Assembly: GCA_026415135.1 (NCBI GenBank)
Contig: JAOAHS010000001.1
Location: 1 to 64,000 of the forward strand
DNA: 64,000 nucleotides
From: Calditerrivibrio sp.
GTDB taxonomy: Bacteria > Chrysiogenota > Deferribacteres > Deferribacterales > Calditerrivibrionaceae
Reading direction: 5' to 3'
Shown: positions 50,351 to 62,640 of the stretch, piece after piece
Numbering within the stretch: the first letter of the stretch is position 1
How the letters are laid out: the number at the start of each line of letters is the position of its first letter
Notes under the pieces: generated by a model
The model's input: the letters and a program-made list of their open reading frames with translations, nothing else
Told to the model about the DNA's origin: nothing
Database searches by the model: none
Program-made: the position numbers and the translations under genes

Positions 50351-51658
50351 ATGACTAAGAGAAAAGGGCTTTCAATACCGATATTTAATAGTGTATCAGG
50401 TTCAGTAGAGGAATTTTATTCGGAACGATTTGGGGTTGTAGCCGATGATTTTGTATCCATAAGGCCTAAATTTGAGAAACAAGAAAATGTTGAGATCTGT
50501 GTTGGTGAATTACTATTCTATGATGCTAAAAATAGAGGGATAAGGTTTTATTCCTTTGTGGATGGCATGGTAAGAAGGATCGTGAGAGGGGATAAAAGGA
50601 AGTTTGTAGCATTTAAATTTGAGGGGGAACCTAAGGTATATGAATTTCATAGAGATGTTTCCACCATAAAACTGATTGAGAGCAATAGGGCTGAGATAGT
50701 TGATGCTATTATAGAAAGTGGTTTGTGGGTTTCATTTAGGCAAAGGCCCTATGATAGGGTGGCTGATCCTGATGTTGTTCCTGATAGAATTTTTGTTATG
50801 CTTGTGGATACAAGACCTCAGGCTCCTGAGGTGAAGGATGTTTTTACTGGATCTGAAAATTATTTTAAAAAGGGTGTTGAACTGCTTACAGCACTTACCA
50901 AAGGGTATGTTCATGTGATAAAACAGAGTGGTATTCATTTTGAAATGGAGCATGAAAAAGTTAGAATGGTGGAGGTAACTGGAGCTCACCCCATTGGTCT
51001 TGTAGGAACGCATATAAACAGATCATTTCCTTTGAACAGAAATAGAAAAGTATGGTATTTGGATTATCAGGATCTTATTGCTATTGGGAAGTTGTTTGTT
51101 GAAAATATCGTCGACAATAGAAGAATTGTATCCATCTACGATGGAAGGCTTATGAGGCTTTTTAATTATTCTAGTTGTGAAGGGTTAGTGGAGTTTTCTG
51201 GTAGAAACAGATATATTGCTGGTTCTGTCCTATATGGTAGGCGTTTGGAACAAGAAGTCCCCTATATTCATAGATATATCAATATATTATCGAGAATTGA
51301 AGAGGTTAGTGAGAGAAGATTTATGGGATGGCTTAGGGGAGGCTTTGATAAATTTTCTGTAAAAAATGTTTTTCTTTCAAAATTTTTTCCTGGTAAAATA
51401 AAGTTTAACACATCTTTAAATGGTAGTTACAGACCTATGGTGCCGGTAGGATCCTATGAAAGAGTTAGTCTCTTCGATGTGCCAATTACATATTTTTTAA
51501 GGGCACTTTTAACGAAAGATGTGGAGATCTTAGAGCGATTGGGTGTGCTTGATTTTGGCGAAGAGGATATGTCCCCTTTTACTTTTGTATGTGTAGGAAA
51601 ATATGATTATGCCCTGTATCTGAGGGAGATGCTTGATGAACTGGAGGCTCAACATTGA
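50351..51658 (+). CDS. nqrA: Na+-translocating NADH:quinone reductase subunit A
   Basis: This 435-residue membrane-associated subunit of Na+-NQR docks at the NqrB face and takes part in ubiquinone or menaquinone interaction. The N-terminal KGLSIPIFNSVSG, the region RPKFEKQENVEICVGELLFYDAK, and GAHPIGLVGTHINRSFPLNRNRKVWYLDYQDLIAIGKLF are typical. The C-terminal SPFTFVCVGKYDYALYLREMLDELE also fits. RnfC is excluded because no 4Fe-4S cysteines are present. It is the first of six contiguous nqr genes. The ATG sits at the predicted transcription start. Confidence 0.96.
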   Translation: MTKRKGLSIPIFNSVSGSVEEFYSERFGVVADDFVSIRPKFEKQENVEICVGELLFYDAKNRGIRFYSFVDGMVRRIVRGDKRKFVAFKFEGEPKVYEFHRDVSTIKLIESNRAEIVDAIIESGLWVSFRQRPYDRVADPDVVPDRIFVMLVDTRPQAPEVKDVFTGSENYFKKGVELLTALTKGYVHVIKQSGIHFEMEHEKVRMVEVTGAHPIGLVGTHINRSFPLNRNRKVWYLDYQDLIAIGKLFVENIVDNRRIVSIYDGRLMRLFNYSSCEGLVEFSGRNRYIAGSVLYGRRLEQEVPYIHRYINILSRIEEVSERRFMGWLRGGFDKFSVKNVFLSKFFPGKIKFNTSLNGSYRPMVPVGSYERVSLFDVPITYFLRALLTKDVEILERLGVLDFGEEDMSPFTFVCVGKYDYALYLREMLDELEAQH

Positions 51659-52848
51659 AAAGATTATTTGAAAGGTTATCGCCTTACTTTCAGAAAGGTG
51701 GAAAGTATGAAAAGTTCTTTCCTATTTTCGAGATGGTGGAGACATTCCTTTATGATCCTTTGATCAAAACTGAAGGGAAGACCCATATACGGGATGGGCT
51801 TGATCTTAAGAGAACAATGATTATAGTGTTTTTGTCCATAATCCCTGCGGCATTATTTGGTATTTACAATGTTGGTTATCAGGCAAACCTATTCATAAAT
51901 AGCAATGGCATCGATCCTGTTGGTTTTAGAGATATATGTATGGATTTTTTCAGGTTAAAATATGATCCAAATAGTGTTATTTCAAATTTTTTCCATGGTC
52001 TACTGTATTTTCTACCATTGTACTTTGTTACTCTTGTTGTGGGTGGTTTTTGGGAGGTGCTATTTGCCGTTGTTAGAAGACACGAGGTGGCAGAAGCGTT
52101 TTTAGTAACAAGTCTTCTTTATCCCCTTATCCTTCCCCCCACTGTTCCTCTTTGGCAAGCTGCTGCTGCTTTGAGTATTGGTTTGGTGTTTGGGAAAGAG
52201 GTATTTGGGGGTACAGGTAGAAACTTTATAAACCCAGCGCTTTTTTCAAGGGCAATTCTCTTTTTCTCCTATCCCCAATCAGTTACGGGTAGCTCAGTAT
52301 GGGTTCCAGTGGATGGGTATTCAAAGGCTACACCGTTATCTGCTTTTAAGGAGAGAGGGTTTGACTTTGGTTATAGTTTTCTTGATGGTTTATTAGGATT
52401 TATTCCTGGTTCTATAGGAGAAACATCTGCTTTGTTGTGCTTGTTTGGAGCTTTTATTCTTGTTGTTACTGGTATAGGATCTTTTAGGCTTATGTTGGGG
52501 ATGGTGTTGGGGATGGGGTTGACAACTTTCCTCTTTAATTTGATAGGAAGTGATACCAACAATATGTTTAACATGCCCTTTTACTATCATTTTGTTTTTG
52601 GTGGCTTTGCCTTCGGTATGGCTTTTATGATTACTGATCCTGTATCCGCAGCATTGACGGATGCAGGAAAATGGGTTTATGGTTTTTTAGTGGGGTTCAT
52701 GAATGCTCTAGTGAGGGTTATAAACCCTGCTTTCCCTGAGGGAACAATGCTTGCCATATTATTTGGTAATATATTTGCACCCTTTATAGATAGTTTTTTT
52801 ATAAGGGGATATATAAAAAAGAGAGAAAAACTCTATGAAAGAAACTAA
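51655..52848 (+). CDS. nqrB: Na+-translocating NADH:quinone reductase subunit B (TTG start)
   Basis: This 397-residue integral membrane subunit has about ten transmembrane helices and a covalently bound FMN. The flavinylation site is the Thr in DGYSKATPLSAF, matching the S-x-A-T flavin-transferase motif. GGTGRNFINPALFSRA and MITDPVSAALTDAGKW are typical. The start is a TTG at 51655 overlapping the nqrA stop, with GGAGG seven bases upstream. With NqrD/E it forms the Na+ pathway, and it is thought to bind riboflavin and quinone. It overlaps nqrC by 14 bases. Confidence 0.96.
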   Translation: MKRLFERLSPYFQKGGKYEKFFPIFEMVETFLYDPLIKTEGKTHIRDGLDLKRTMIIVFLSIIPAALFGIYNVGYQANLFINSNGIDPVGFRDICMDFFRLKYDPNSVISNFFHGLLYFLPLYFVTLVVGGFWEVLFAVVRRHEVAEAFLVTSLLYPLILPPTVPLWQAAAALSIGLVFGKEVFGGTGRNFINPALFSRAILFFSYPQSVTGSSVWVPVDGYSKATPLSAFKERGFDFGYSFLDGLLGFIPGSIGETSALLCLFGAFILVVTGIGSFRLMLGMVLGMGLTTFLFNLIGSDTNNMFNMPFYYHFVFGGFAFGMAFMITDPVSAALTDAGKWVYGFLVGFMNALVRVINPAFPEGTMLAILFGNIFAPFIDSFFIRGYIKKREKLYERN

Positions 52849-53548
52849 GGCTAAAATTTTTATGGTTTCACTTGGAGTTGCTCTTTTTTTCTCCTTTATA
52901 GTGTCTGCTACTGTACAGCTTCTCAAAGACAAACAGGAGGAAAATGTAAGGCTTGATAGATTAAAACATATCTTTTCTCTGGTGGAAAATGGAAGTATAG
53001 AGCCTAAGGTATTACTTGTGGACATAAAAACTGGAGACTCAAAAGAGGTCACCTCGGATGTAGATTTTTTTAATAATTTCAGGTTGTTAGCCACAGGTGA
53101 AGGGGCCGTGAAGATAAATAAAAAAGATGATTTTATAGGTGTGGGGTCTCATCCACGATATATGCCTGTATATCTTTTTTATGATGGGGATAAATTGATA
53201 AATGCAGTTTTTTTTGTTTATGGGAATGGGCTATGGTCTACAATGTATGGTTTTTTAAGCCTTAAAGGAGATCTTAGAACTATTCAGGGTATAACCTTTT
53301 TTGATCAGAAGGAGACACCGGGGTTAGGGGGAGAGGTGGATAACCCTATTTGGAAAGCAAAATGGGAAGGGAAGAAGCTTTTTGATGATGATGGTAGGTT
53401 TAGGTTTTCTGTTTCAAAAGGTAGTGATCAGTTTTCTGTTGATGGTCTTTCAGGGGCAACACTCACCACAAGAGGTGTGGATAATATTGTAAAATTTTGG
53501 TTTGGTGATAATGGGTATAAGAAATTTTTAGAAAGGTTGAAGGGGTAG
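52835..53548 (+). CDS. nqrC: Na+-translocating NADH:quinone reductase subunit C
   Basis: This 237-residue subunit has one N-terminal membrane helix (about 8-30) and a periplasmic FMN-binding domain. The FMN is covalently attached to the Thr of VDGLSGATLTTRGV (about residues 204-217). YGFLSLKGDLRTIQGITFFDQKETPGLGGEV is the usual FMN_bind stretch. It overlaps nqrB by 14 bases and precedes nqrD by three. A flavin transferase (ApbE) must exist elsewhere to load it. Confidence 0.96.
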   Translation: MKETKAKIFMVSLGVALFFSFIVSATVQLLKDKQEENVRLDRLKHIFSLVENGSIEPKVLLVDIKTGDSKEVTSDVDFFNNFRLLATGEGAVKINKKDDFIGVGSHPRYMPVYLFYDGDKLINAVFFVYGNGLWSTMYGFLSLKGDLRTIQGITFFDQKETPGLGGEVDNPIWKAKWEGKKLFDDDGRFRFSVSKGSDQFSVDGLSGATLTTRGVDNIVKFWFGDNGYKKFLERLKG

Positions 53549-53551
53549 ACA

Positions 53552-54169
53552 ATGGGTGTTAAGAAGGATACCTTTGTTGGACCGATCTTTATTAATAATC
53601 CTATTACTATACAGGTACTTGGGATCTGTTCTTCTCTGGCTGTTACTACTCAACTTAAGACAGCTCTTGTGATGGGACTCTCGGTTACAGCTGTTGTGGC
53701 TATGAGTAATCTACTCATTAGTATGATGAGAAATCATATCCCCCCATCAGTAAGGATCATTATAGAGATGACAGTTATTGCTTCCTTTGTTATTATTGTG
53801 GATCAGTTTTTAAAGGCTTATCTTTTTGAAATAAGTAAACAGTTGTCAGTTTTTGTGGGACTTATCATTACAAACTGTATATTGATGGGTAGAGCTGAGG
53901 CGTTTGCTATTAAAAACCCACCTCTGTTGAGCTTTCTGGATGGCTTAGGTAATGGGCTGGGGTATGGTATGATACTGGTTATCGTGGGCGCTATAAGGGA
54001 GCTTGCTGGTAGTGGCAGGTTGTTTGGTTTTGAAATTTTTAAGATGCAAGTAAATGGTGGGTGGTATGTGCCTAATGGGATGTTTTTGCTTGCTCCAAGC
54101 GGTTTTTTTATCATTGCTACGATAATCTGGTTTGTTAAGGAAAGGGAAAAGAGAATAAGGAGGGGATGA
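53552..54169 (+). CDS. nqrD: Na+-translocating NADH:quinone reductase subunit D
   Basis: This 205-residue six-helix membrane subunit is homologous to RnfE. Conserved features are [31 protein letters not shown] with a Cys at about residue 26, and [13 protein letters not shown] with a Cys at about residue 109. These cysteines coordinate an intramembrane Fe-S cluster together with NqrE in solved structures. The dimer forms part of the Na+ route. It starts three bases after nqrC. Confidence 0.95.
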
Positions 54170-54170
54170 G

Positions 54171-54782
54171 ATGTTGGAGCATTATCTAAGTTTACTCATC
54201 AAATCTATATTTATAGAGAACATGGCTCTTTCTTTTTTCCTGGGGATGTGTACGTTTCTTGCAGTGTCTAATAATATGGAGACGGCAAAGGGGCTTGGTG
54301 TTGCGGTTGTTGTGGTGCAATCTATTACAGTACCTATAAACAATATCTTGTATCAATTGATTTTCAGAGATGGAGTTCTCGTAAAATGGGGTTTGGGAGA
54401 TATAAATCTGAATTTTTTGAGTTTAGTTGTGTATATTGGAGTTGTGGCAGCTATTGTTCAGGTGTTGGAGATGGTTTTGGATAGGTTCTTTCCTAAGCTT
54501 TACAATGCCTTAGGTATATTTTTGCCACTTATTACTGTGAATTGTGCGATTTTAGGTGGGACATTGTTCATGGCCCAAAGGGGGTATACTTTTACGGAGT
54601 CGCTGGTGTTTGGTTTTGGTAGTGGTTCTGGTTGGGCATTGGCTATCGTTGGGCTTGCCGGTATAAGGGATAAAATGAAGTATAGTGATGTGCCTGATGG
54701 TTTAAAAGGGCTTGGGATTGTTTTCATTGCTGCAGGTATTATGGCCGTGGCTTTCATGATCTTTTCTGGAATACAATTATGA
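54171..54782 (+). CDS. nqrE: Na+-translocating NADH:quinone reductase subunit E
   Basis: This 203-residue six-helix membrane subunit is homologous to RnfA. Features include [30 protein letters not shown] with a Cys at about residue 26, and [21 protein letters not shown] with a second conserved Cys near 122. It pairs with NqrD in inverted topology and shares the intramembrane Fe-S cluster. AGGAGG-like sequence lies ahead of the ATG, and its stop overlaps nqrF. Confidence 0.95.
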
Positions 54783-55993
54783 TAGTATTTTTGGGGACTA
54801 TTTTTTTTACAGCGATTATCCTTTTGTTGGTGGGGTTAATAGTAGAAGCCCGTAGGTTCCTGATCAAAGAGGGTAATGTTAGGGTGATTATAAATAATGA
54901 AAAAGTTTTAGAAGTATCGCCTGGGGATAAGTTGTTAAACGTTTTAGCTGCTGAAAAAATATTTGTATCGTCAGCATGTGGTGGTGGTGGATCATGTGGT
55001 CAATGTAAAGTCAAGGTTATTGAGGGTGGTGGTTCTATTTTACCTACTGAGAAGGCCCATATCAATAAGAAGTTGGAGAGAGAGGGATTTAGGCTTTCAT
55101 GCCAGTTACCTGTTAAGAATGACGTAAAAATTTATCTGCCTCCTGAGGTGTTTAGTGCAAAGGAATACCTATGTGAGGTGGTTTCCAATCGAAATGTGGC
55201 AACATTTATAAAAGAGCTGGTATTGAAGTTACCCACAGATGAGTTTGATTTTGAGGCTGGTGGATATATCCAGATTAAAATACCTCCATATTTTGTTGAC
55301 TTTAAAGATTTTGATATAGATGAACAGTTTAGGCCTGATTGGGATAGGTTTTCTTTATGGCATCTCAAATCAAAAAATGATAGGGAGGTTATAAGGGCTT
55401 ATTCTATGGCCAATTTCCCCCTTGAAAAGGGGTTTGTTAAACTGAATGTGAGGATTGCTACACCACCCCCAAAAAGTGTAGGGATACCTCCTGGTGTGGG
55501 GTCATCTTATATTTTTTCTTTAAAACCTGGGGATAAGGTAACGATACTTGGTCCTTTTGGTGAATTCAAGGCATCTGATACAGACGCTGAGATGGTTTTT
55601 ATAGGTGGAGGTGCTGGAATGGCACCGCTACGCTCGATTATTTTTGATCAACTTATTCGCTTGAAAAGCAAAAGGAAGATAACCTATTGGTATGGGGCTC
55701 GAAGCTTAAAGGAGATTTTTTATAGTGAGGATTTTGAGAGGTTACAAAAAGAGTACAATAATTTTAAATGGTATGTAGCTCTATCTGAACCACTTCCAGA
55801 GGACAACTGGACTGGACTTGTTGGTTTTATCCATCAAGTGGTTTATGATAATTATTTGAAGTATCATCCTGAACCGGAATCTGTTGAGTATTATTTATGT
55901 GGCCCTCCACTAATGCTTAAAGCAGTTTTAAATATGTTAGATAGTTTAGGAGTGGAAAAAGGTAATATCAGGTTTGATGATTTCGGTAGTTAA
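54779..55993 (+). CDS. nqrF: Na+-translocating NADH:quinone reductase subunit F
   Basis: This 404-residue electron-entry subunit has one N-terminal membrane helix (about 2-24) and a 2Fe-2S ferredoxin domain (about 34-130; [15 protein letters not shown] plus a fourth Cys in FRLSCQLP). An FAD-binding domain (about 135-265; [11 protein letters not shown]) and an NADH-binding domain (about 270-404; [31 protein letters not shown]-terminus) follow. It oxidises NADH and passes electrons to NqrE/D and NqrC. It closes the six-gene operon. Confidence 0.97.
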
Positions 55994-56069: not shown

Positions 56070-57077
56070 ATGGACTCTGTAAAAAGATCTACAAAGATCA
56101 ATAAAGATCAGGTTACTGAGAGGAATTTTACAGAGTTTTATATTGCTGTGATAGATGGGGAACCAGAGGAGGCTCTCGATGATTTTTCTGAAGTCGAAGA
56201 ATCAGAGGAGAATGAAGAACAGGAGCTTGATGAAAAAAGATCGGACTCAAGCTATGATATTCTTAACATATATCTAAAAGATCTATCCAAATGTCCCGTC
56301 CTATCCAAAGAGGAAGAGGTTGAACTGGCAAAGCTCATAGAGCAGGGTGATGAAAAAGCAAAGGAGATGATGATAAGCTGTAATCTTCGCCTTGTGGTTT
56401 CAATCGCTAAAAAATATGCAAACAAAGGGGTTCCCCTTGAAGATCTCATTTCAGAAGGGAATATAGGTTTGATAAAAGCTGTAGAGAAATTTGATTATAA
56501 AAAAGGTTTTAAATTTAGCACTTACGCAACTTGGTGGATAAGACAAGCTATAGAAAGAGCTATAATTACAAACACAAAGATTGTTAAAGTACCGATCCAT
56601 ATAATGGACTATATAAAAAAGATACTTAGGGCTACCTCAGAACTAAAAGAACAATTGGGGAGGAACCCCACATACATGGAGTTGTCAGCTTTTACAGGTA
56701 TATCTATTGCAAATCTTTATAAAGCGGTGGAGGCTATGAGGCAGGATGTATCTTTGGATGCTCCCATCTCTGAGGATGAACAGGAAAACCTTCATAACCT
56801 TATTGCTGATGAGATACAGAAGGACCCCTTTAAGCATGCTTTTGAGATGAATATACAAAATCTTGTGAGTAAATGGATGACCTATCTTACAGATATGGAA
56901 AATCAGATTATCACCATGCGATTTGGTCTGGATGGTAAAAAACCAAAAACGCTTGATGAAGTGGGAAAGGAACTAAATCTGACAAGAGAAAGGATCAGAC
57001 AGATAGAAAAAAGAGTACTTAGTAAATTAAGGAACTTTTTTTGCAATAAAAATATCAGAAAGGAGTCTCTGTTATGA
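56070..57077 (+). CDS. RNA polymerase sigma-70 family factor (RpoS/RpoD-like, group 2)
   Basis: This 335-residue sigma factor has an acidic N-terminal extension of about 65 residues (Glu/Asp-rich) and then region 1.2 ([32 protein letters not shown]). Region 2 follows ([57 protein letters not shown]), then region 3 ([27 protein letters not shown]) and region 4 ([38 protein letters not shown]). It lacks the large region 1.1 and non-conserved insert of housekeeping RpoD, so an alternative RpoS-like role is likely. Its stop overlaps the peptidase gene by four bases. Confidence 0.88.
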
Positions 57078-58252
57078 TTTCAAAACAGGAACTTTTGGAG
57101 AGAATAGAGCGATTCAGGAAAAATTTAACTTGTCTGGATGATAGTTGGGAAGTGGTTGCAATATTTGGAAAGGTAAATATATTTTATTTTACGAACACAA
57201 TGCAGAACGGTGTTTTAATCATAAAAAGGGATGGGAGTAACTATTTTTTTGTTCGAAAAAGTTATGAAAGAGCTAAGCTGGAATCTCCCCTTGACTTTAT
57301 TTACCCTATTAAAAGTTTCAAAGATATATTAGCAGTTACAGATTTATCAGGTGATGTCATTCATGTGGAAAAGGATATTGTACCTTTAGGATTTTTCGAA
57401 AGGTTTAATAAAACATTTGGATTTAATACAATTGCATCAGCTGATCTGGCTATTTATAAGACGAGGGCTGTAAAATCCCAGTACGAATTGGGGCTGATCA
57501 AAAAGAGTGGGGAGATACATGAGTATGTAATGCAGAAATATCTACCTCAGGTTTTTAGGGAAGGGATGAGTGAGGCGGAGCTTGGGGCTTTGGCTCTTAA
57601 GGAGATCATAGTGCAGGGTGGGCAGGGTTTAACAAGGATGGGTAGCTTTAATTCTGAGCTTTTCGCAGGTAACATCTGTTTTGGGGATAGCAGTAATTAT
57701 TATAACTCCTTTGATGGTCCTGCAGGTATTTTGGGTGTTTCTCCAGCTGTTCCCCTTTTGGGGAGTCATAAAAAGTTCTTAAAAAAAGATACTATAGTGA
57801 TGCTGGATATAGGTTGTGGTTTTGAGGGTTATCATACGGATAAAACAACGGTCTATGCTTTTGGTAATATACCCGATGTAGCGTATGAATATCACAAAAG
57901 ATGTGTTGAGGTGCAGCATCTTGTGGCGGAGAGACTAAGGCCAGGGGAGATACCATCGAAGATATATGAGGATATCATGTCAAAGATAGATAGTGCATTT
58001 GATGTGCATTTTATGGGTTATGGATCGAATAAGGTCAAGTTTTTGGGGCATGGGATTGGGTTAGTGATCGATGAGTATCCTGTTATTGCGAAGGGATTTG
58101 ACGAGCCGTTGGAGGAGAATATGGTGCTGGCTATAGAACCTAAAAAAGGGATTGATGGTTGGGGTATGGTGGGTATTGAGAATACTTTTGTGGTTACCAG
58201 GAATGGTGGTGTGAGTATAACAGGCAATGATTTTGATATAATAAAATTATAA
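57074..58252 (+). CDS. M24-family aminopeptidase (Xaa-Pro dipeptidase-like)
   Basis: This 392-residue protein has an N-terminal creatinase-like domain (about 1-135) and a C-terminal pita-bread metallopeptidase domain. Metal ligands are visible: the two Asp of [18 protein letters not shown], His in [10 protein letters not shown], Glu in VLAIEPKKG, and Glu in [10 protein letters not shown]. These support an active dinuclear metal peptidase with specificity near Xaa-Pro. It is co-transcribed with the sigma factor (overlapping ATG/TGA) and precedes a reductase gene. Exact substrate is unknown. Confidence 0.9.
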
Positions 58253-58263
58253 TGGAGTTAATG

Positions 58264-59244
58264 ATGAAGAGTTTTAAGGCTGTTGTGGTTGAAGAGATAG
58301 ATGGTAAGTTTGAGATTAAGTTGAAGGAAAAGGAAGTAGATGCTCTTCCTTCTGGGGATGTTTTGGTAAATGTTAAGTATTCTTCAATCAACTACAAAGA
58401 TGCACTCTCCTGTAGTGGTAATAAAGGGGTTACCAAAAGCTACCCCCATACACCTGGGATAGATGCTGCTGGTATAGTAGAGGAGTCTACTTGTGATGAG
58501 TTTAGAAAAGGGGATGAGGTCATAGTTATAGGCTTTGATCTCGGGATGAATACCCCCGGTGGTTTTGCAGAATATATTAGGGTTCCAAAGAGCTGGGTAG
58601 TAAAAAAACCAAGTGGGTTATCCCTTAGGGAATATATGATATATGGTACGGCAGGTGTTACTGCAGCTTTATCTGTAGATAAACTTATCCAGTATGGGAT
58701 AAAGGTGGGGTATGGTAAGATAGCTGTAACAGGAGCTACAGGTGGTGTTGGCCTGTTTTCTATTGCTATTTTAAGTGGGCTTGGTTATGATGTTGTTGCA
58801 ATCACAGGTAAGATGGAGGAGGCAGATTATCTAAAATCTTTTGGGGCAAAAGAGGTAGTTGATAGGAAGGAATTTGAACAGGTTAATACTAAAGCACTTT
58901 TAAAACCACAGTTTATAGCAGCTGTGGATACTGTAGGAGGTGAGGTCCTGGTGAATGTCATAAAATCGATTAACTACGGGGGGGCAGTGGCTGTCTGTGG
59001 TATGGCTTTTTCTCCTAATATTTCCCTTACCGTTTTCCCATTTATACTGAGAGGGGTTTCTTTGCTTGGTATAGATTCTGTTGAGATAAGGAAAAACGAT
59101 ATCCTTAATAAAATATCTAACGTTTATAAACTAGAAAATCTCGATAGATTTTCTACTGAGATAGGGCTTGAGGATATATCAGGTGCAGTTGAAAAGATCA
59201 AGAAGGGCGAGGTAAAAGGTAGATATCTTGTAAGAGTTAGTTAA
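58264..59244 (+). CDS. YhdH/AcuI-family NADPH-dependent alkene (acrylyl-CoA/quinone) reductase
   Basis: This 326-residue medium-chain dehydrogenase/reductase lacks zinc ligands. It opens with FKAVVVEEIDGKFEIKLKE and has YSSINYKDALSCSGNKGVT and PHTPGIDAAGIVEES. The NADPH-binding AVTGATGGVGLFSIAIL follows, and GVSLLGIDSVEIRKND comes near the end. The YhdH/YhfP/AcuI subfamily reduces acrylyl-CoA or related activated alkenes. Two adjacent ATGs (58261, 58264) follow a GGAG; the ATG at 58252 overlaps the upstream stop and has no ribosome site of its own. Confidence 0.9.
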   Translation: MKSFKAVVVEEIDGKFEIKLKEKEVDALPSGDVLVNVKYSSINYKDALSCSGNKGVTKSYPHTPGIDAAGIVEESTCDEFRKGDEVIVIGFDLGMNTPGGFAEYIRVPKSWVVKKPSGLSLREYMIYGTAGVTAALSVDKLIQYGIKVGYGKIAVTGATGGVGLFSIAILSGLGYDVVAITGKMEEADYLKSFGAKEVVDRKEFEQVNTKALLKPQFIAAVDTVGGEVLVNVIKSINYGGAVAVCGMAFSPNISLTVFPFILRGVSLLGIDSVEIRKNDILNKISNVYKLENLDRFSTEIGLEDISGAVEKIKKGEVKGRYLVRVS

Positions 59245-59246
59245 TC

Positions 59247-59447
59247 ATGTCAAAAGGGCTCTGGATTTGGCTCGTCTTTTTTGCGTGCGGATTTGTTTTT
59301 ATAAATTACCCATTTATTAGGATCTTTGATAAAAATATATTTCTCTTTAAGATCCCTCTTTTATACATCTATTTTTTTATGGGTTGGATCTCTTCGATAT
59401 TCGTTGTATATATCTTTAAAAAAATATTTCTAAAACATGAAAATTAG
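59247..59447 (+). CDS. Small two-helix membrane protein ahead of the SLC5-fusion sensor
   Basis: This 66-residue protein has two hydrophobic helices (about 5-24 and 37-60) with a short loop (RIFDKNIFLFK) and a basic C-terminus (FKKIFLKHEN). It starts two bases after the reductase gene and overlaps the giant sensor gene by 11 bases. Small two-helix proteins often precede sodium:solute symporter genes and act as accessory subunits. By position this is a candidate partner for the SLC5 domain of the next protein. No named family is recognised. Confidence 0.7.
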   Translation: MSKGLWIWLVFFACGFVFINYPFIRIFDKNIFLFKIPLLYIYFFMGWISSIFVVYIFKKIFLKHEN

Positions 59448-62400
59448 TTTGAGTGTCGTTTTCCTCATAAGTTTTTTGTATATCCTTCTACTTTTTTTTA
59501 TTGCATTAATCTCTAATATTCTGGTTAGAAGAAAAAGAAGGGTGATTTATAATCCTTATATTTATGCGTTAAGTATAGGGGTGTATTGTACTGCATGGAC
59601 CTATTACGGTTCTGTTGGTAGAGCAAGTGTTGATGGAATTGAGTTTCTTGCTATATATATTGGACCTACACTGATGGTTTTTTCCTGGTGGTTTTTATTG
59701 AGAAAAATGGTAAACATTGTAGAAAGACATAATATAAATAACTTGGCTGATTTTGTCAGTTTTAGATTTGGTCGATCTAAAAGAGTGGGATTGGTTGTAG
59801 CTGTTGTGTGTGTTGTCGGTATTATACCCTATATTTCGCTGCAATTGAAATCTATAAATGAAACTATACTAATACTTGCAGATCTTGGTTCAGATTTTAC
59901 TTCACCATTGTTTTTTGATACATCCTTTTATGTGTCACTTTTTATTGGTATTTTAGCTTCTCTTTTTGGAGTTCACCATATTGCTGAGGGGAGAAAGCAT
60001 CCAGCTTTAGTTGGTGTAATAGCTTTTGAATCGGTTGTTAAGTTGATTATTTTATTAATAGCAGGAGGGTATGTGGTTTATCTGTCTGGGGGCTTTAGCC
60101 AGATATTTGGATATTTATATACTAATCAAAATGATCCTGCTGTGGCAAAACTTATAGTACTTGACAAAGGTAATAATTCTTACGGTAAATGGTTTTCTAT
60201 GATGGTGATGAGTATGTTTGCTGTGATGTTTTTGCCAAGACAGTTTCAGATGGCGGTTGTGGAGAATGACTCCCCAAAACATATAAAAGAGGCGATGTAT
60301 CTTTTCCCCCTTTATCTGTTTTTGATAAACCTGTTTGTGATACCCATTGCTATCTCTGGGAAATTATTTCTCACAGGTGATTACAATCCTGATTACACAA
60401 TACTTTATATTCTAAGGGATAAGGGTTCTTTGTTTTTTATGGTATTGGTATATATTGGTGGTTTGGCAGCTGCCACTGGGATGATTATTGTTGCTTCGGT
60501 AAGTTTATCAAATATGTTTGTAAATAATATTATAGTTCATGTTTTTGTAAAACTTTTGATGTTTAGTAGATTTGGCAAGTACATAACATCATTAAAGAGA
60601 TTAATGGTTATTATTATTATCCTCGCTGGTTACTTTTTTTATCGTTATGTGGGGGAATTTTTTAGCTTGGTGGATTTGGGGTTGGTATCTTTTGCAGCCA
60701 TTTCCCAGATAGCTCCTGCTGTGGTGTTGGGTCTATTTGTTAAGAGGCTAAGTAGGGATGGGGTTTTTTGGGGTATTATATCAGGTTCTATTGTGTGGTT
60801 TTATACACTTGTTGTGCCTTATTTTGCTAAAGCTGGTATCATTGATTATCGTATTGTAACAGATGGTTTGTTTGGTCTTGCTATCCTTAAGCCCACTGAG
60901 CTTTTAGGACTTACAGGACTTGACTCATGGTCCCATACCCTTTTCTGGAGTATGTTATTAAATATTGTTATTTTGACTGTTATATCTTTGGTTTCCGAAC
61001 AAAACGAAGAGGAGAAAGAGACAGCCTCATTATGTGTGGATAGCTTGAAGCTACATTTTCTTCTTGGAAAGGAAGATGTTAGTAGGAGTTTAAGCCTAAC
61101 CGATATAAACAATATCTTATCAAATTTTTTTGGAAATGAGTATGCCAAAAAGGTTATAGATAACTTTTTAAACCAAATTGGCAAAGAGAGAAGGGATCTC
61201 AATGTGGATGATATAAAGTTGTTGGTAGATGAGGTAAAAACTCATCTTTCAAGTGCTGTGGGGCCTAGCGCTTCTGAGATCATTATAAATTCTTATTTGG
61301 AAATGGCAGGGAAAACAGGTAGAGATGTCATGAATGTATTTAAGGACCTTGTTAGCTTGGGGGTAGGTGAATCGAGGGATACATTGATACATCGTATAAC
61401 AGAGCTTAATATACTACTTGAGATCTCCAGACAGTTTACTTCAACAACAGATTTGGTTAAAAAGCTTCAAAATGCCATAGACATCATCCGTAATAACCTC
61501 AAAATAGATCTTGTAGTGATTAGAAAAAGAAGTGGTGATACATTGGAAACAGTTGTCTATTCTGGAGATATAAACTCATTCAAAATGATATCCAATATAA
61601 GGAGAATAGATTCCCAAAAGACATATATCGGTAGAACATTTGTTACTGGTAAGGCGGTATATATTGATGATATAGACAATGCGATGGAATCTGAGTATAT
61701 AAATGAACTCAAAAATAGAGGTGTTAGATCTTTTTGTCATATCCCCCTTGTTATTGATGGTAAAGTGGAAGGTGTATTATCATTATTTTCCAAAACATAT
61801 AAAAATCTGTTTAGTAGGGAATTTGTAAACATCCTCGAAAGCATTGTTAGCCAGATGGCTTTCTTGATGGATAATCATAATAAAGCGGAAGAGCTTATCA
61901 AAATAAAAGAGGTTTCCAAAGAATTGGAGATTGCAAAGATGATACAAGCATCCCTCGTATCTGTAGATCCTTTTAGCTTTGAAGGAATAAAAGTGGTTTC
62001 TGCCTATTCCCCTTCGGTGTATGTTGGAGGAGATTATTACGATATTATAAGGGTAGATGAAGAACAGGTAGATATAATTATTTCGGATGTTTCAGGTCAC
62101 AGTATATCTTCTGCTCTAATAATGTCGCAGATAAGAAGTATAATTCATACTTCTTTAAGTATAAACAAAGCGTTGAAACCTTCAGATATGTTACATCTAA
62201 TAACAAAACAGATATTCCCTCAGATAAATAGATATAATTTCATCATCACGATGTTATACATAAGACTAAACCTTTTTAGTGGAGACCTTACAATGGCCAA
62301 TGCAGGTCATTATAATCCAATACTCATAAAGGATGGTGAGGTTATCGAGCTTAGATGTGACGGGGTACTCATCGGTGTTTTTGATGATATGAAATATCTG

Positions 62401-62640
62401 GAGGAGAAATACAACATTAAAACTGGAGATTGTTTGGTTTTGTTTACCGATGGTGTAGTGGAGTCGGAAAATGAGAATGGTGAGTTTTTTGGAAAAGAAA
62501 GATTTCTTAATATACTAAAAGAACACGCCTATATGGAGCCTGAGAAGATCAGAAATGCGATCCTAACCTCACTTTCTGCTTTTACTAAAAATTATGTGCA
62601 GAAAGATGATATATCACTTTTGATAATTAAAAAGGTGTAG
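59437..62640 (+). CDS. SLC5-STAC-GAF-SpoIIE phosphatase fusion sensor
   Basis: This 1067-residue protein has an N-terminal sodium:solute symporter domain (about 1-520, around 13 helices; YCTAWTYYGSVGRAS, ADFVSFRFGRSKR, FLPRQFQMAVVEND). A STAC-like linker follows (about 550-640; LTDINNILSNFFGNEYAKK, HLSSAVGPSASEIII), then GAF (about 650-815) and a C-terminal PP2C/SpoIIE phosphatase (about 820-1067). The phosphatase motifs are complete: AKMIQASL, VGGDYYDI, ISDVSGHS, NAGHYNP, LFTDGVVESE, KDDISLLII. SLC5-STAC modules normally front histidine kinases such as CbrA; here the output is an RsbU-type phosphatase, expected to act on an anti-anti-sigma factor. No kinase or STAS gene is adjacent. Confidence 0.9.
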   Translation: MKISLSVVFLISFLYILLLFFIALISNILVRRKRRVIYNPYIYALSIGVYCTAWTYYGSVGRASVDGIEFLAIYIGPTLMVFSWWFLLRKMVNIVERHNINNLADFVSFRFGRSKRVGLVVAVVCVVGIIPYISLQLKSINETILILADLGSDFTSPLFFDTSFYVSLFIGILASLFGVHHIAEGRKHPALVGVIAFESVVKLIILLIAGGYVVYLSGGFSQIFGYLYTNQNDPAVAKLIVLDKGNNSYGKWFSMMVMSMFAVMFLPRQFQMAVVENDSPKHIKEAMYLFPLYLFLINLFVIPIAISGKLFLTGDYNPDYTILYILRDKGSLFFMVLVYIGGLAAATGMIIVASVSLSNMFVNNIIVHVFVKLLMFSRFGKYITSLKRLMVIIIILAGYFFYRYVGEFFSLVDLGLVSFAAISQIAPAVVLGLFVKRLSRDGVFWGIISGSIVWFYTLVVPYFAKAGIIDYRIVTDGLFGLAILKPTELLGLTGLDSWSHTLFWSMLLNIVILTVISLVSEQNEEEKETASLCVDSLKLHFLLGKEDVSRSLSLTDINNILSNFFGNEYAKKVIDNFLNQIGKERRDLNVDDIKLLVDEVKTHLSSAVGPSASEIIINSYLEMAGKTGRDVMNVFKDLVSLGVGESRDTLIHRITELNILLEISRQFTSTTDLVKKLQNAIDIIRNNLKIDLVVIRKRSGDTLETVVYSGDINSFKMISNIRRIDSQKTYIGRTFVTGKAVYIDDIDNAMESEYINELKNRGVRSFCHIPLVIDGKVEGVLSLFSKTYKNLFSREFVNILESIVSQMAFLMDNHNKAEELIKIKEVSKELEIAKMIQASLVSVDPFSFEGIKVVSAYSPSVYVGGDYYDIIRVDEEQVDIIISDVSGHSISSALIMSQIRSIIHTSLSINKALKPSDMLHLITKQIFPQINRYNFIITMLYIRLNLFSGDLTMANAGHYNPILIKDGEVIELRCDGVLIGVFDDMKYLEEKYNIKTGDCLVLFTDGVVESENENGEFFGKERFLNILKEHAYMEPEKIRNAILTSLSAFTKNYVQKDDISLLIIKKV

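Follow-up and report, generated by a model that had tools for sequence, protein, structure and literature searches.

CbrA of Pseudomonas joins an SLC5 transporter and a STAC domain to a histidine kinase. Its transporter is proton-driven, with K196 occupying the Na2 site, and cryo-EM reveals the small protein CbrX as a helical hairpin bound at TM3/TM8 of CbrA (PMC13022988). CbrX is 58 aa long, its gene overlaps cbrA by 17 nt, and translation of CbrX is required for translation of CbrA (PMC6591292).

The partner switch of B. subtilis is built from a PP2C phosphatase (RsbU/SpoIIE), a STAS antagonist with a DSSG motif (RsbV/SpoIIAA) and a GHKL kinase (RsbW/SpoIIAB). SiaA likewise acts in a partner switch. 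So does HsbR, and the HsbR/CrsR switches of Pseudomonas and Shewanella demonstrate that partner switching in Gram-negative bacteria can act on RpoS (PMC6482189). A solute symporter and a PP2C domain in the same protein have been mentioned in one sentence of a 2021 review, which refers to Actinobacterial proteins with SSS, GAF, PP2C_SIG and HATPase_c domains (PMC7918813). Here, we describe a locus from Calditerrivibrio sp. in which an SLC5-STAC module is fused to a SpoIIE-type phosphatase. It lies in the window, the whole stretch of 64,000 nucleotides that was analysed.

Architecture of the fusion protein

The fusion gene (positions 59437..62640, + strand) encodes a transceptor phosphatase of 1067 aa and is preceded by an open reading frame of 66 aa; both frames were found where the original prediction had placed them. 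As that prediction had also claimed, open reading frame, domain and AlphaFold2 analyses locate SLC5, STAC, GAF and complete SpoIIE/PP2C domains in a single chain. The AlphaFold2 model, built with 14 homologues (mean pLDDT 77), contains 13 TM helices, four helices between residues 554 and 623, a GAF domain, a long helix at 794-840 and a PP2C fold. The whole architecture is kept in 17 genomes of the window's phylum at 35-68% identity.

The SLC5 domain (residues 1-519, 59437..60993, +) has no SLC5/SSF match in Pfam, and the NCBIfam MctP model matches residues 77-518 with E=4.5e-18, far below its cut-off. Residues 1-622, however, form a single alignment with the cryo-EM structure of the Pseudomonas CbrA SLC5-STAC module (PDB 10ed_A, E=1.2e-68), and a Foldseek search with the fusion model returned NIS/SGLT transporters among the first-ranked structures, along with the PP2C domains of P. 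aeruginosa RssB and SiaA. The CbrA pocket residues Y51, W55, F71, Y75 and F406 are all conserved, as is the Na2-site lysine K196, and three pocket positions are changed (S53T, A56T and F248S). We infer that the solute of the fusion need not be histidine. Because CbrA is proton-driven with K196 in its Na2 site, sodium coupling is unlikely in the fusion by analogy. The 13-helix fold expected of a "sodium:solute symporter" is thus present according to the CbrA alignment and the AlphaFold2 model, but the sodium in that name is probably misplaced.

The STAC domain was assigned to about residues 546-625 (61072..61311, +), which form four helices in the AlphaFold2 model. When a profile of the linker (residues 524-648), built from nine homologues, was searched against the PDB, the STAC region of CbrA ranked first (E=0.0038). 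Of the 86 SLC5-STAC proteins without a phosphatase, 84 match this profile just past the last TM helix at E<1e-5, and no shuffled decoy does. The isolated STAC model (pLDDT only 68) had no match in Foldseek, so that support for a STAC domain in the predicted region, 550-640, comes from sequence comparison. On that footing, we regard the segment as a STAC domain.

Pfam places a GAF domain at residues 673-808 (E=1e-9) and a SpoIIE domain at 875-1065 (E=3e-42). The GAF domain as we delimit it (673-812, 61453..61872, +) is recognized by both PF01590 and PF13185 and matches PDB 2qyb. The helix at 794-840 (61816..61956, +), a probable coiled coil, forms the joint between the GAF domain and the phosphatase. 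The SpoIIE/PP2C domain (62059..62631, +) is supported by motifs, Pfam and fold, with the fold beginning near residue 845. Pfam finds neither HisKA nor HATPase_c in the protein, which agrees with the claim that a phosphatase replaces the C-terminal DHp-CA histidine kinase as the output.

The phosphatase domain has the PP2C fold and the metal-binding Asp motifs, and its GGDYYD, DVSGH, TDGV.E and DDIS motifs are intact. All 38 non-redundant phosphatase-type homologues retain the corresponding GGDYYD, DVSGH, TDG..E and DD[IV][ST] motifs. By PDB profile search and Foldseek, the closest solved PP2C domains are those of P. aeruginosa RssB/HsbR and SiaA (6k4e).

A CbrX-like protein belongs to the input module

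The 66-aa protein (59247..59447, +) has two hydrophobic helices, and its gene overlaps the start of the fusion gene by 11 nt. Neither Pfam nor NCBIfam has a family for it, and PDB profile searches with the 66-aa family gave no sequence match to Pseudomonas CbrX and no matching chain. An ORF of this kind nevertheless lies upstream of the fusion in 17/17 phylum orthologues and, among all 38 phosphatase-type loci, in about 36 (35 by motif and one, L227, by reading), so that the adjacency is constant in the phylum and nearly so overall. The family has the conserved motifs N-[YF]-P-F..IF and GW..S, and its invariant positions are W, N.PF, IF, P, Y, GW and S. We consider the protein to be the equivalent of CbrX on the basis of its size, position, gene overlap, topology and conserved pairing; a sequence match between the two was not found in the profile searches. 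Similar ORFs also precede some kinase-type SLC5-STAC relatives, which indicates that the CbrX-like protein belongs to the input module and not to the phosphatase. The tiny membrane partner of the original prediction is therefore real, but it is not a new kind of protein.

RsbV and RsbW accompany the phosphatase form

To place the fusion in context, we compared 38 non-redundant phosphatase-type loci with 86 other SLC5-STAC loci (85 kinase-type by motif and one unclassified), counting RsbV/RsbW neighbours with tblastn. In 23 of the 38 phosphatase-type loci, including most of those with distant homologues, the next genes on the same strand encode an RsbV-like STAS protein and an RsbW-like kinase, as opposed to 0/86 of the others. 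This linkage supports the predicted tie between the phosphatase output and partner switching. In family f10, genomes G048 and G050 have the fusion followed by a STAS gene with a DSSG motif and then by an overlapping HATPase_c_2 gene. The complete unit of CbrX-like, fusion, STAS and HATPase genes also occurs, among the matches listed when 84,980 species genomes were scanned, in records of Desulfuromonas, Geobacter, Malonomonas and Desulfuromusa. The full-length fusion is found in 12 of the 297 genomes surveyed from the Desulfuromonas/Geobacter-type phylum of G358; plasmid records gave partial matches only, none covering 80% of the query. Among solved structures, the pair is most closely related to B. 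subtilis RsbW and SpoIIAB and to anti-sigma factor antagonists of the SpoIIAA/RsbV type.

Two loci outside the window's order, that of G049 and one of the copies in G358, have no adjacent RsbV/RsbW pair. The sole RsbW match in G049 (4e-22) may be a paralogue. The second full-length fusion of G358 (L187) has neither an adjacent pair nor a recognized CbrX-like ORF, and the same genome holds the copy L227, which is followed by an RsbV/RsbW pair.

In the window's own genome (G000), the pair does not adjoin the fusion and lies on another contig (G000:C35:26278-27055, - strand), where a genome-wide search for STAS and RsbW-like genes located it. This RsbV is a STAS protein of 115 aa with the sequence FIDSSGLG, which includes the DSSG motif and its phosphorylatable Ser, and the RsbW is a HATPase_c_2 protein of 150 aa. 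Of the 17 phylum genomes with the fusion, 16 encode a strong RsbW homologue (E<1e-20), versus 0/34 of those without it, a co-occurrence that is phylogenetically clustered and was scored with a profile built partly from the counted genomes, such that Fisher values overstate the independence of the observations and the association is support, not proof. The only fusion genome without a strong homologue, G013, is 64% complete.

A query of the window's genome for other SpoIIE phosphatases found one, at G000:C1:95274-96863. The surrounding region (G000:C1:84000-102000) is, by inspection, a flagellar/chemotaxis cluster with FlhF/FlhG-like, FliM/FliN-like and CheA-like genes and a FliA-like sigma factor. 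The SpoIIE gene is followed in this cluster by a STAS gene (96864-97187) and then by a gene whose 472-aa product has a further STAS domain, and matches of this flagellar type persist in relatives that have neither the fusion nor an RsbW homologue. We judged this enzyme to be the less likely RsbV phosphatase because it belongs to a flagellar/chemotaxis cluster, has a STAS gene of its own and occurs in relatives without an RsbW homologue.

An apparent exchange of the output domain

In the phylum of G358, loci L211-L226 encode SLC5-STAC-GAF proteins that match the fusion to about residue 835; beyond it most carry a histidine kinase, and several are preceded by a CbrX-like ORF. Since these relatives share the SLC5-STAC-GAF portion up to that point and then have a kinase, the output appears to have been exchanged behind the GAF domain. 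A tree of phosphatase and kinase forms requires two changes, and that the phosphatase form arose only once is neither established nor rejected (AU p=0.24).

An RpoS-like sigma factor heads the gene run

The fusion belongs to a tight gene run on the + strand. The first is an RpoS-like sigma factor (56070..57077) that scores 312 bits against TIGR02394 (rpoS_proteo), below the cutoff of 378.7. It is followed by two probable passengers, an M24 peptidase resembling Xaa-Pro dipeptidase (57074..58252; Pfam, NCBIfam) and a YhdH/acrylyl-CoA reductase family oxidoreductase (58252..59244; TIGR02823, 403 bits, above cutoff), and then by the CbrX-like gene. Successive offsets in the run are -4, -1, +2 and -11 nt. 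The original prediction had noted a sigma factor gene about 2.4 kb upstream in the same direction; it is present, but that description understates the relationship because the gene heads the same run of overlapping and abutting genes. Scans for consensus promoters and terminators gave no more matches than shuffled sequence. Positions 51655-55993 hold a gene run that by inspection resembles an operon for Na+-translocating NADH:quinone reductase (Nqr).

Among the genomes sampled, the arrangement from sigma factor to fusion is kept only in G000, G001 and G003, with G002 cut by a contig end, and a linkage conserved beyond the genus was accordingly rejected. The RpoS-like sigma factor itself gives a strong match in every fusion-bearing family of the window's order, and it is also present in family f5, which is without the fusion. 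The fusion-bearing f10 genomes G048 and G049 have no RpoS-like sigma factor, their best sigma matches resembling RpoD and RpoH-type proteins, and we therefore rejected this factor as a universal target. Nor is any sigma gene conserved beside the four-gene unit in other lineages. The predicted step from partner switching to a sigma factor may apply in this genus, where the genes are linked; the linkage is not conserved elsewhere. Given linkage in the genus only and absence from f10, the RpoS-like protein is a reasonable candidate target within the genus and cannot be the general one.

Proposed mechanism and alternatives

We consider it highly probable that the fusion is a sensory transporter with a phosphatase output, in which the SLC5-STAC-GAF portion controls the dephosphorylation of RsbV and hence the RsbV/RsbW switch. 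As a solute binds or is transported, probably with protons as the driving force, the SLC5 domain would change its conformation. The CbrX-like protein would sit on this domain, perhaps aiding dimerization. The STAC domain, docked on the cytoplasmic face, would relay the conformational change through a signalling helix to the GAF domain and by way of the coiled coil to the PP2C domain, which would remove phosphate from the Ser of the RsbV DSSG motif. Once dephosphorylated, RsbV would bind the kinase responsible for its phosphorylation, RsbW, which would then free its target. In the window's genus, that target may be the RpoS-like sigma factor at the head of the gene run. The fullest version of this scheme, a conserved module of four genes (CbrX-like, SLC5-STAC-GAF-PP2C, RsbV and RsbW) in which transporter occupancy or turnover sets partner switching and, in the genus, releases the RpoS-like factor, is one that we put forward tentatively.

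The fusion might act on RsbV and RsbW in a switch that controls no sigma factor; like SiaABCD, the switch could for example control a diguanylate cyclase, or else another protein. We give this possibility slightly less than an even chance. It is favored by the structural match of the PP2C domain to SiaA, by the two f10 genomes that carry the fusion without an RpoS-like factor (G048 even with an adjacent RsbV/RsbW pair) and by the lack of a conserved sigma neighbour in other lineages. Against it, the solved proteins most closely related to RsbW are anti-sigma kinases, and a sigma gene does head the run in the window's genus. Control of that RpoS-like factor through RsbV and RsbW is possible but somewhat doubtful: the genes of the run overlap or lie no more than 2 nt apart, linkage is seen in three genomes, the sigma factor is matched strongly throughout the fusion-bearing families of the order, and the HsbR/CrsR switches offer a precedent, whereas the linkage is confined to one genus and the sigma factor and the fusion part company in both f5 and f10.

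It is unlikely that the SLC5 domain is an ordinary transporter, with the fusion serving mainly to place a phosphatase at the membrane and the GAF domain doing the sensing. GAF domains commonly bind small molecules, as this explanation would have it. A passage of the 2021 review also states that the transporter and kinase parts of CbrA can function apart (PMC7918813). The STAC domain and the SLC5 pocket are, however, conserved together across homologues of 35-68% identity, and the SLC5-STAC module is reused with kinases. Finally, SLC5-STAC and SpoIIE are not joined through an artefact of gene prediction or assembly, a suggestion refuted by a single open frame without internal stops in the 17 phylum genomes and in Desulfuromonas/Geobacter-type genomes.

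With the fusion as a sensory transporter acting on RsbV, a gene-control switch is probably driven by a transporter that senses nutrients, in place of a histidine-kinase relay. If so, the SLC5-STAC-CbrX input would be a portable module, able to drive partner switches no less than two-component systems, and it would be a candidate for the nutrient input that RsbV/RsbW systems receive in Desulfuromonas/Geobacter-type bacteria. Were the RpoS-like factor also released, the result would be a transporter-gated stress or starvation switch that operates without a two-component system. Because the signal could be read out as a small soluble protein losing its phosphate, the fusion would also offer a simple system for asking how a transporter transmits to a signalling domain.

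Comparison with known systems

The original prediction had allowed that the architecture might be already common and described. The fusion is indeed not rare in its clades, but in the open-access literature we found no description of SLC5-STAC with SpoIIE, or of the four-gene unit, beyond the sentence on Actinobacteria. Compared by that description, the Actinobacterial proteins also combine a solute symporter and PP2C in one chain; they differ in having a fused HATPase_c, and the passage in question reports no STAC domain, CbrX gene or RsbV/W operon (PMC7918813).

All three components of the B. subtilis switch, the PP2C phosphatase, the DSSG STAS antagonist and the GHKL kinase, recur with the fusion; the input here is a transporter with a STAC domain and a CbrX-like subunit. 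Among solved PP2C domains, those closest to the fusion's belong to HsbR-HsbA/CrsR-CrsA and to SiaA. HsbR/CrsR, unlike the fusion, have a receiver domain as their input, and SiaA has a different membrane sensor.

CrbS/MxtR and RpuS have the SLC5-STAC input in common with the fusion and a kinase as their output, and RsbV/RsbW genes are never adjacent in the kinase-type loci that we examined. The likeness to CbrX-CbrA extends to the 13-TM SLC5 domain with STAC, the overlapping two-helix gene upstream, the Na2-site Lys and most of the pocket residues (PMC13022988, PMC6591292), with the three pocket substitutions given above. CbrA is an SLC5-STAC-PAS-DHp-CA kinase and acts on a response regulator; the fusion instead ends in a GAF-PP2C phosphatase. 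Both its input module and its output module are of known kinds, here combined in one chain.
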